Below are positions 38,068 through 40,034 of a stretch of DNA of 64,000 bases, piece after piece. This stretch comes from Paenibacillus tianjinensis. GTDB lineage: Bacteria; Bacillota; Bacilli; Paenibacillales; Paenibacillaceae. The translations under genes were made by a program, and so were the position numbers. The stretch lies in NCBI RefSeq assembly GCF_017086365.1, contig NZ_CP070969.1, positions 4,278,001 through 4,342,000 of the forward strand. The letters run 5' to 3'. The notes under the pieces are model-generated. The model was given only the letters and a program-made list of their open reading frames with translations. It was not told the origin of the DNA and made no database searches. Every line of letters starts with the position of its first letter. The stretch's first letter is position 1.

Positions 38068-39366
38068 CTACTGAATCACATCGTAAATAATCGGATCAAC
38101 TGTTGGCATTGAAGTTTGAATCTCAAATGCAGCCTTAGTTTTAGCAATACTGTCGGTATGTTGTCCATTGCTGTGAATTATGGCAATAACGTCTCCCTTT
38201 TTAACTTGTTCACCAGTTTTCTTGCAGATTGTAATACCAACTGCATAATCAATGTTATCTGTCTTTACTTTGCGTCCTGCCCCCAATAACATTGCAGCAA
38301 TTCCAATTTCCTCTGCATTGATCGAAGAAATATACCCATCATTTTCGCTTGTAATAGAGATGTGTTCCTTTGCTTGAGGGAGTAATTTGTAGTCATTAAT
38401 AAAGTCCACATTCCCTCCTTGTGCAAGAACAAACTCTTTGAATTTCTCAAGCGCTTTACCTGTCGAGATCGATTCATTTAGCTCTTGATGCGCTTCTGCT
38501 TTATTAGTGTATTTTCCGCCTAAAACTGCCATATTCGAAGCAAGCTCTAAACATAACTCTGTTAACTTAGCCTCTCCCTTTCCCTTTAAAACATCAACAA
38601 CCTCTTTTATTTCATTAGCATTACCGACTTCATAGCCAAGAGGCTCATTCATATTGCTAAGTATTGCTACAGTTTTTCTATTAAGGTTGTTTCCGATACT
38701 TACCATTATTTCTGCCAATTCTCTAGCATCGTTTATGTTTTTCATGAATGCACCAGCACCCACTTTAACGTCCAATACAATTGCATCTGCGCCCGAAGCA
38801 ATTTTCTTACTCATAATTGAACTCGCAATCAATGGGATTGATTCAACAGTTCCAGTAGCATCTCTTAACCCATACAACTTTTTATCCGCAGGAACCAGAT
38901 TAGACGTTTGCCCAACCAAAGCAATGCCTATTTCATTAACGTTATTTATAAAGTCATCGTTAGATAACTCGATCTTGAAACCGTTAATCGCTTCTAACTT
39001 GTCTAACGTTCCTCCTGTGTGACCTAATCCTCTTCCTGACATCTTTGCAACAGGAACTCCAATTGAAGCAACAAGAGGCAACACAATCAGGCTAGTTTTA
39101 TCTCCTACGCCTCCCGATGAATGTTTATCAACCTTTACTCCTCGAATTGCCGAAAGGTCTACAGTGTCACCAGAAAAGGCCATAGCATGTGTTAAGTACG
39201 AAACCTCATTATTGTCCATTCCATTAAAGCAAACTGCCATCGTAAATGCCGACATCTGATAATCGGGAATTTCACCTATGACATAATTATTAATCATAAA
39301 CTCTATCTCATCTTTAGATAAAGCTTGTCCATTACGCTTCTTTAATATCAAGTCCACCATTCTCAT
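38068..39366 (-). CDS. pdp: Pyrimidine-nucleoside phosphorylase, prophage-borne complete copy
   Basis: 432 residues, the usual family length. Motifs: KVDKHSSGGVGDKTSLI and MSGRGLGHTGGTLDKLE (phosphate and nucleoside binding), DATGTVESIPLIASSIMSKK, LDVKVGAGAFMK, and the C-terminal beta-hairpin domain ending VDPIIYDVIQ. It splits uridine, thymidine or deoxyuridine to base and sugar phosphate. Start: the ATG at 39366 follows AAGGGGTG and aligns with the host protein start (MRxVDLI); a GTG at 39375 abuts the chimera's stop. It is AT-rich, like the prophage, and ~63% identical (58 of 92 by my count) to the remaining host N-terminus, so it is a separate acquisition. It lies in line with the host nucleoside operon, at the point where the host copy is broken. 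Confidence 0.9.
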   Translation of the reverse strand: MRMVDLILKKRNGQALSKDEIEFMINNYVIGEIPDYQMSAFTMAVCFNGMDNNEVSYLTHAMAFSGDTVDLSAIRGVKVDKHSSGGVGDKTSLIVLPLVASIGVPVAKMSGRGLGHTGGTLDKLEAINGFKIELSNDDFINNVNEIGIALVGQTSNLVPADKKLYGLRDATGTVESIPLIASSIMSKKIASGADAIVLDVKVGAGAFMKNINDARELAEIMVSIGNNLNRKTVAILSNMNEPLGYEVGNANEIKEVVDVLKGKGEAKLTELCLELASNMAVLGGKYTNKAEAHQELNESISTGKALEKFKEFVLAQGGNVDFINDYKLLPQAKEHISITSENDGYISSINAEEIGIAAMLLGAGRKVKTDNIDYAVGITICKKTGEQVKKGDVIAIIHSNGQHTDSIAKTKAAFEIQTSMPTVDPIIYDVIQ

Positions 39367-39371
39367 TGTTT

Positions 39372-40034
39372 TCACCCCTTACTTTTAAGGTTAAGCAAGT
39401 CTTTATTATGCCAAACTTCAACCATCTTTATAATCTCAAACGTCAATTCTAAAGGAGTATAGATATTAGCATAATGTAAATATTCATCTGGCGATTTATC
39501 GAATGCTTCAGTAATTTTCAAAAACTTTTCAAATTGTGGCACAACTCCATAAATCAAATAACTTTTAATTGTTGTACTACTAATCCCTGTTACAAGCGAT
39601 AAAGCATTGGGTTTTGGAGATATTTCTTTTTCATTTGCACACTGGATAAGCCAATGCTTAAAACTTGATTTATGGGCGTTGTATATTTCTAACGCCCACT
39701 CTCTAAAGTTATGTGACTGGCCTTTGGCTAAGGATATCAGAATGTTTATGTTCTTTGTTGTTGTTTTATCACCTACACCGCCGGTGGAATGCTTATCCAC
39801 CTTGATGCCGGCGATAGGACTCAAGTCCACTTGGTCGCCGGACATCGCCATTTCGAGTGTCAGATCGCCGGTTTCCCGCGCGTTCATTCCCTGGAAGTAT
39901 ACGGCCATTGCCCAGGCGGAAATCTGGTAATCCGGAATTTCGCCTTTGCTGTAACCCTGGATCAGGTAGGCGATTTCCTCACGGCTTAGCTCGCCGCCGT
40001 CTCTTTTCTTCTGAATCAGATCAACCGCACGCAT
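39372..40034 (-). pseudogene. pdp: Host pdp N-terminus fused in frame to phage coding sequence
   Basis: 220 codons. The first ~91 (MRAVDLIQKKRDGGELSREE to STGGVGDKTT) are the GC-rich host pyrimidine-nucleoside phosphorylase N-terminus, beginning with an ATG that shares its A with the stop of the upstream phosphorylase gene. From about 39760 downward the sequence becomes AT-rich and unrelated to Pdp. The ~129 phage codons include an XRE/HTH-like segment (ALSLVTGISSTTIKSYLI, FEKFLKITEAFDKSPDEYLH). The phosphate-binding start is kept but most of the active site is lost, so the product is surely not a phosphorylase. The phage part has no start codon of its own near the joint, so it is probably the 3' part of a phage gene cut by integration. 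Stop TGA is immediately before the phage pdp ribosome binding site start. Confidence 0.85.
39755..39775. other. Host-prophage junction (attR-type) inside pdp
   Basis: Base composition and protein homology both switch here. Rightward, the minus strand encodes KHSTGGVGDKT of host Pdp; leftward, phage codons follow without a break in frame. A short shared core around GGTGATAAAAC is plausible, because it encodes the conserved GDKT, but the partner site (attL) lies outside the window, so exact edges and core cannot be fixed. Confidence 0.7.

Follow-up and report, generated by a model that had tools for sequence, protein, structure and literature searches.

A GVE3-like prophage of Paenibacillus tianjinensis splits host pdp by an integrase exchange and carries a whole pdp that probably replaces it

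What becomes of a metabolic gene when a prophage has integrated into it? The question is raised by a window of 64,000 nucleotides, positions 4278001–4342000 of the one-contig 6.27-Mb genome of P. tianjinensis, in which the host gene for pyrimidine-nucleoside phosphorylase (pdp) runs into prophage DNA and a second pdp follows it. A sequence-only reading of this window had proposed that the prophage breaks the host gene and supplies a complete replacement in the same operon position. On the evidence of the sequences, we consider it probable that the strain is a lysogen of a large temperate phage like Geobacillus virus E3 (GVE3), that exchange by the phage integrase split host pdp, and that the phage gene restores Pdp.

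The host genes were arranged on the minus strand in the order deoB, two purine-nucleoside phosphorylase genes and the start of pdp (Table 1). The host pdp frame continued without a stop from host into phage DNA after ~90 codons, which gave a chimeric ORF of 220 aa at the right junction, attR (39372–40034, minus strand), as the sequence-only reading had described it with ~91 host codons and a stop at 39372. The contrast that it had drawn between a GC-rich host part and an AT-rich phage part was borne out (54% for 39763–40034 and 33% for 39372–39762, with 38% for the phage pdp), and its identity of ~63% over 92 residues was reproduced, with 58 of residues 1–92 of the chimera shared by the phage Pdp. 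The host part was 97–98% identical to the intact pdp of two relatives (L101 and L102). In the phage part the HTH_3 match was weak (E 0.086), and a better one was found in the corresponding chimera of CAVE-418 (7.6e-5). Modelled alone, the chimera reached a pLDDT of 41, with an uninformative fold.

Table 1. Features of the host operon, the right junction and the prophage (positions in the window).
Feature	Position	Strand	Evidence
Host deoB (phosphopentomutase), upstream operon gene	41844..43022	-	NCBIfam TIGR01696, 599.8 bits (cut-off 341.2)
Host purine-nucleoside phosphorylase 1	40975..41844	-	NCBIfam NF006054, 393.6 bits (cut-off 218)
Host purine-nucleoside phosphorylase 2, end overlapping the start of pdp	40034..40894	-	NCBIfam NF006054, 382.6 bits
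Host pdp 5' part, ~90 codons, helical-bundle domain PF02885	39763..40034	-	PF02885, E 2.4e-21
attR core GATAAAAC, common to attL (genome 4142594-4142601)	39763..39770	-	Present in the natural attB of L101 and L102
3' end of phage integrase gene, HTH-like tail, fused to host Pdp N-terminus	39372..39762	-	31% identical to the GVE3 gp56 tail
Intact phage pdp, 432 aa, putative replacement for the split host gene	38068..39366	-	NCBIfam NF004747, 613.8 bits (cut-off 559); full-length alignment to 1BRW
Terminator-like hairpin 3' of phage pdp	37971..38010	-	RNA fold of 37960-38015, -22.7 kcal/mol, z -4.9
Right part of the ~175-kb prophage	1..38067		attL outside the window, at genome 4142601

From the stop of the chimera to the start of the phage pdp the sequence reads AAGGGGTGAAAACAATGAGA. 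A full-length pdp on the same strand, with its ATG at 39366 straight after that stop, had been claimed from the letters alone and is present as one ORF; a GTG at 39375, overlapping the chimera stop, is an alternative start. The phage Pdp passed the pyrimidine-nucleoside phosphorylase equivalog model, was of full length (aligned to residues 1–432 of 1BRW) and kept K81, H82, S83, R168, S183 and K187, which we take to be the catalytic or phosphate-binding residues of the enzyme. Pairwise comparison of the phage pdps gave dN of 0.18–0.45 with dS of at least 2 or saturated, ratios that were taken between phages and say nothing on selection in lysogens. In the phylogeny, the 17 Paenibacillaceae host genes and the four phage pdps lay on opposite sides of one branch (support values of 93/93; recovered in 92% of 200 bootstrap trees; not starred); with midpoint rooting the phage genes did not form a clade, and that of CAVE-418 stood on a very long branch. 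At 528.7 bits, the CAVE-418 phage Pdp also fell short of the 559 bits required by the NF004747 equivalog model, though it passed that of TIGR02644. The hairpin behind the phage pdp was absent from the list of a simple pattern-based terminator scan, the promoter and terminator scans gave no clear excess over shuffles, and an Rfam search of 36000–46000 of the window found no family. The phage pdp itself holds the same 8-bp core as attB. The flanks of this copy differed from those of attB (15/22 and 10/22 bases shared), and thus the phage pdp may be a poor self-target of the integrase.

The left junction, attL, was found outside the window, and the 3' part of host pdp that had been expected there was present (genome 4141573–4142622), in frame with the integrase. 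The attL ORF comprised 920 aa, residues 1–565 being a large serine recombinase and the remainder the alpha/beta and C-terminal domains of host Pdp; its Pfam domains were Resolvase, Recombinase, a zinc ribbon (Zn_ribbon_recom), Glycos_transf_3 and PYNP_C. Both junctions carried GATAAAAC; the distance between them was 175,169 bp, and the reading frame was the same at both. The sequence-only reading would have been weakened by a second intact host pdp, and none existed in the genome: its three pdp matches at E ≤ 0.001 were the intact phage gene and the N- and C-parts of the host gene. As a control, 197 of 197 Paenibacillaceae genomes matched pdp, with three matches in our own genome (G000) and in G284, two in 14 genomes and one in the others; among the entries listed, the two-match genomes were read as carrying full-length pdp paralogues. 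The comparison with prophage-free relatives that it had called for bore it out further, in that two of the 20 relatives searched (G166 and G189) kept a whole pdp and the natural attB, with a Pdp C-part 98% identical to ours. Against the two host halves of our strain, their empty sites agreed at 21 of 22 bases each on the left and at 22 of 22 and 19 of 22 on the right. In attL, attR and natural attB alike, the site of integration was the GGVGD codons of host pdp. A chance or misassembled junction was ruled out, because attL and attR are consistent with each other, with the natural empty site of two relatives and with two further lysogens.

The element itself encoded holin and endolysin inside the window, and terminase, portal protein and DNA polymerase outside it. 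Two more of its proteins matched the phage integrase families phrog_1 and phrog_5830 (window 2026–3027, plus strand, and L008:8836–9837, minus strand). At the prophage edge, a protein with a NucS-like C-terminal nuclease domain was encoded convergently with the phage pdp (37042–37965, plus strand).

The pre-integration order of these parts was seen in GVE3, the phage reportedly described by van Zyl et al. (2015). In this free phage, the integrase gp56 was a single ORF of 675 aa that comprised the recombinase core, then SFGGVGDTTTTK, then a tail, and it overlapped gp55, a Pdp of 432 aa, by 4 nt. Since core, att motif and tail lie in one ORF, attP is inside the integrase gene, and integration swaps the 3' ends of int and pdp. 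Our integrase was 55% identical to gp56 over 549 aa and belongs to the same family of large serine integrases. A protein search with gp56, in which 7996 candidates were scored, found 64 proteins. Thirteen of them had GG[VI]GD at residues 536–563; 12 were unfused, and the other one (P0005) had Pdp beyond the motif. The fused integrase-Pdp form was seen in our own protein (P0006), in CAVE-418 (P0010, L014, L017) and in L015. On the phage side, our integrase and that of CAVE-418 lacked the full GGVGD motif. The AlphaFold model of gp56 from a 40-row alignment (mean pLDDT 78.5, pTM 0.44) had its core to residue 526, pLDDT below 50 at 536–569 and a folded helical tail at 571–667. The att-coded peptide lay within the low-pLDDT stretch, so the crossover is predicted to fall in a disordered linker. 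The tails were named by weak to moderate HTH_3 or HTH_26 matches, and a PDB fold search with the GVE3 integrase ranked serine integrases first (TM-scores of 0.18–0.25 in the top ten) and did not identify the tail. With at most three candidates scored for each entry listed, the integrase was found at 1e-60 in three of 394 Paenibacillaceae genomes. A class-wide search with a 40-protein alignment was rejected as a measure of family frequency: 113 of 398 genomes passed 1e-50, yet the others scored ~173–272 bits against 858 for our own, as would more distant serine recombinases. Upstream of int, a RuvC-like gene was seen in both our prophage and GVE3 (L004:14590–15102, minus strand, and L012:7782–8282).

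The same arrangement recurred in other lysogens, and three Paenibacillaceae lysogens (ours, P. pini and CAVE-418) could be read at both ends. At attR, both P. pini and CAVE-418 had a chimera of Pdp N-part and tail (224 and 221 aa, respectively), followed by a full phage pdp that starts within the last four bases, and the intact phage gene thus stood behind the chimera in all three lysogens with a readable attR. With GVE3 included, the tail-then-pdp order held for four of the four elements readable on that side. The integrase frame of P. pini was broken upstream of the junction (ORFs of 515 and 394 aa), and the junction itself was in frame. Two virus records gave a fused match only, without a full phage pdp: G002, a 132-kb fragment in which attR was not seen, and G001 (218 kb). 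In G004, which has the same ORF at the site as G001, the fusion and the phage pdp were ~217 kb apart, a distance at which a record of the size of G001 would end close to that pdp or short of it. A gene for a small recombinase zinc-ribbon protein followed pdp in GVE3, P. pini and CAVE-418 and was not found in our prophage (best tblastn match, E 0.70); we regard it as accessory to GVE3-type pdp phages and not as one of their defining traits.

A related integrase group (P0032–P0040), without the GGVGD motif, was associated with another host gene. In virus record G767, the TGGEP codons of yfkAB were the point of the cut; the integrase ran antisense to this gene and ended in reversed yfkAB, and the cut gene was taken as the host's. 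On the same contig (L111:2390–4411, minus strand), the integrase end occurred in both an attP-like and an attL form around 10 N; excised and integrated DNA may have been mixed here. In G766 the integrase was unbroken, with a complete yfkAB at once behind it. In G769 the same order ran across the contig ends, with a YfkAB 86% like that of G766, and the ends share a 127-bp repeat, so that this contig is probably a circle. YfkAB was rare in phages, matching 14 of 50,697 records and three over at least 80% of its length; by family search it is a radical SAM protein. At two genes, therefore, phages of this integrase family appear to carry beside attP the very gene that the family breaks. The yfkAB case is the weaker one, as the G767 contig has no visible attR and a lysogen with both halves and a phage copy was not found. 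Since host yfkAB is antisense to int, placement in the host operon does not hold in general, and the antisense junction also speaks against a general role for the fused host domain. Upstream of int, the yfkAB group had another gene in the place of the RuvC-like one (L047:5222–5758 and L114:2102–2635), presumably a dihydrofolate reductase gene. Two further integrases ended in frame in the C-terminus of the urease alpha subunit, UreC (P0024 by family search, P0027 by alignment), pointing to ureC as a candidate third target. On the short contigs L044 and L045 of other integrases, no copy of a target gene was visible behind int.

Staphylococcus phages phiST9-A and phiSabovST1 (L115:233–2469 and L117:1103–3324) showed an integrase (annotated as integrase or xerC) and, directly behind it, a yfkA homologue near the record edge. 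They were not counted as independent cases of a carried yfkA: besides this position by the integrase at the edge of the record, a search of 11 genomes found in one of them a gene up to 88% like it, and for a related phage the prediction is that it gives the N-terminus alone. According to the accessible text of two papers, yfkAB is a known prophage site of S. aureus (PMC8638950; PMC11852059).

The DNA itself shows the split of host pdp, the two fusions, the empty site, an intact phage gene and the arrangement in free GVE3. From these, the following course is proposed. A large serine integrase with attP in its own gene, at the linker between recombinase core and HTH-like tail, would recombine attP with the GGVGDK-loop codons of host pdp. 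The 3' ends would swap, which accounts for the integrase core with the Pdp C-part at attL and for the Pdp N-part with the integrase tail at attR; our own phage would have had a contiguous integrase before integration. Host Pdp would be lost on integration, and the phage pdp would become the last gene of the deoB-PNP-PNP-pdp operon, at the chimera stop, presumably expressed from the host promoter. The phage enzyme would then very likely restore Pdp in the lysogen, and excision would be expected to restore host pdp. Pdp is not known to be an essential enzyme, which weighs against this reading. Integration with compensation, as the sequence-only reading had put it, is supported by the split host gene, the lack of another copy, the intact phage gene in three of three lysogens and the relatives with a whole pdp. 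Its claim of a replacement in the same operon position stood in that the phage pdp is found at that place; it is not placed there by the operon alone, being already just behind the integrase in free GVE3.

The phage pdp could instead be an auxiliary metabolic gene that serves nucleotide salvage while the phage grows lytically, with its place beside attP incidental. A counterpoint to compensation is that the prophage encodes two ribonucleotide reductases (class I and class III), so that pdp, in a phage that also has DNA polymerase and helicase genes, could serve lytic growth; the overlap of GVE3 pdp with the end of int fits this as well. Yet pdp was present in just 25 of 50,697 phage records and nevertheless beside attP in all four readable pdp-breaking elements, and the related yfkAB-breaking group carries in that place yfkAB instead, whose product is of unknown function in the accessible part of PMC12323379. 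A second target of this kind argues against pdp as a chance metabolic gene, and we regard the auxiliary role as improbable. Far less credible still is a captured host fragment without a role, left by specialised transduction or imprecise excision. Specialised transduction is named as an alternative in the available text of a review that treats GVE3 (PMC8303945), but the four phage pdps are split from the host genes in the tree, and our phage gene is AT-rich, only 63% like the host N-part, kept at full length and of low dN.

It is possible, though we rather doubt it, that the exchange itself is the point: cutting off the HTH-like tail would switch the activity or expression of the integrase, and the Pdp part would be a by-product. 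The predicted position of the att-coded peptide between core and folded tail of gp56 would suit such a switch, as would the finding that, besides GVE3, the 12 unfused motif-bearing proteins among the 64 matches keep 115–144 residues beyond GG[VI]GD. By analogy, integration gives the int of Mx8 a new 3' end and a changed specificity, as far as the available text goes (PMC6070905). This reading has to accommodate the rapid divergence of the tails, at 23–35% identity between slices with slightly different borders, and it does not by itself explain a copy of the target gene. Re-tuning of the integrase by tail loss would also be compatible with compensation, which remains the reading that we prefer.

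Compensation is supported here, and it had been presented by the sequence-only reading as a less common arrangement; the idea is not new, having been put forward for GVE3. According to the accessible part of that review (PMC8303945), the sequenced GVE3 lysogen has the phage in the bacterial chromosome with a 23-bp duplicated site, an attP "within the gene" and the phage pdp behind a resolvase gene; host pdp is inactivated, and the host was suggested to rely on the phage enzyme. The site in host pdp is also given in the available text of PMC8779076. Our element and GVE3 are alike in their serine integrases, in integration in pdp, in the phage pdp directly behind int and in the proposed compensation. 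They differ in host family, that of GVE3 being a heat-loving relative, in the phage Pdp (identity of 63% over 400 aa and of 59% over the full length) and in the small zinc-ribbon gene of GVE3; our own lysogen could also be followed through attL and attR, down to the in-frame exchange. What is added to GVE3 is the reading of both ends in three lysogens, the domain exchange and the yfkAB-splitting integrase group.

The integrase of myxophage Mx8 is of the tyrosine type. In the accessible description (PMC6070905), which includes no replacement gene, the int of Mx8 carries attP inside its coding sequence and receives a new 3' end on integration. Both features were found here on comparing gp56 with the attL and attR ORFs. 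The archaeal suicidal integrases of the SSV type also have the recombination site inside the integrase gene, but as far as the available text describes them (PMC8371274) they are tyrosine integrases split in two, whereas our recombinase core is not divided. S. aureus phages that integrate in yfkA, such as ASZ22RN, break the gene and are predicted to restore the protein, in the available text by supplying a new N-terminal end only (PMC12323379). A tested precedent for whole-gene replacement is tRNA-dependent lysogeny: there too, in the accessible part of the report (PMC10865867), the attB gene is not rebuilt at the junction and a whole replacement gene is on the phage. That system has a tRNA and a tyrosine integrase, with the need proven by mutants, whereas ours has a protein gene and a serine integrase and is known from sequence. 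In a literature search with most subscription papers outside its scope, no phage-carried whole yfkAB and no serine-integrase tail exchange was found.

These results suggest that whole-copy replacement of a broken protein gene lasts within a phage lineage and is not a curiosity of GVE3; the evidence comes from four elements at pdp and, in less complete form, from the related group at yfkAB. By analogy, it may offer a protein-gene counterpart to tRNA-dependent lysogeny. Serine integrases are widely used DNA tools, and here nature provides an example of integration altering the integrase's own C-terminus, with possible direction control by domain exchange. As a tentative extension, we speculated that a family of large serine integrases cuts, swaps and compensates: the attP linker codons would match a conserved host motif (GGVGDK in Pdp, TGGEP in YfkAB and probably MGDPN in UreC), tail loss would lock or re-tune the integrase, the chimera of Pdp helical domain and HTH in the pdp group might act in the lysogen, and each lineage would carry a whole copy of the gene that it breaks.

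In four Bacilli genomes, other serine recombinase ORFs ran antisense into a short ORF (L095:2524–4566, plus strand; L096:2637–4898, minus strand; L097:1931–4327, minus strand; L073:1510–3339, plus strand). We take this short ORF to be rlmH, and the site to be an SCC-like attachment site.
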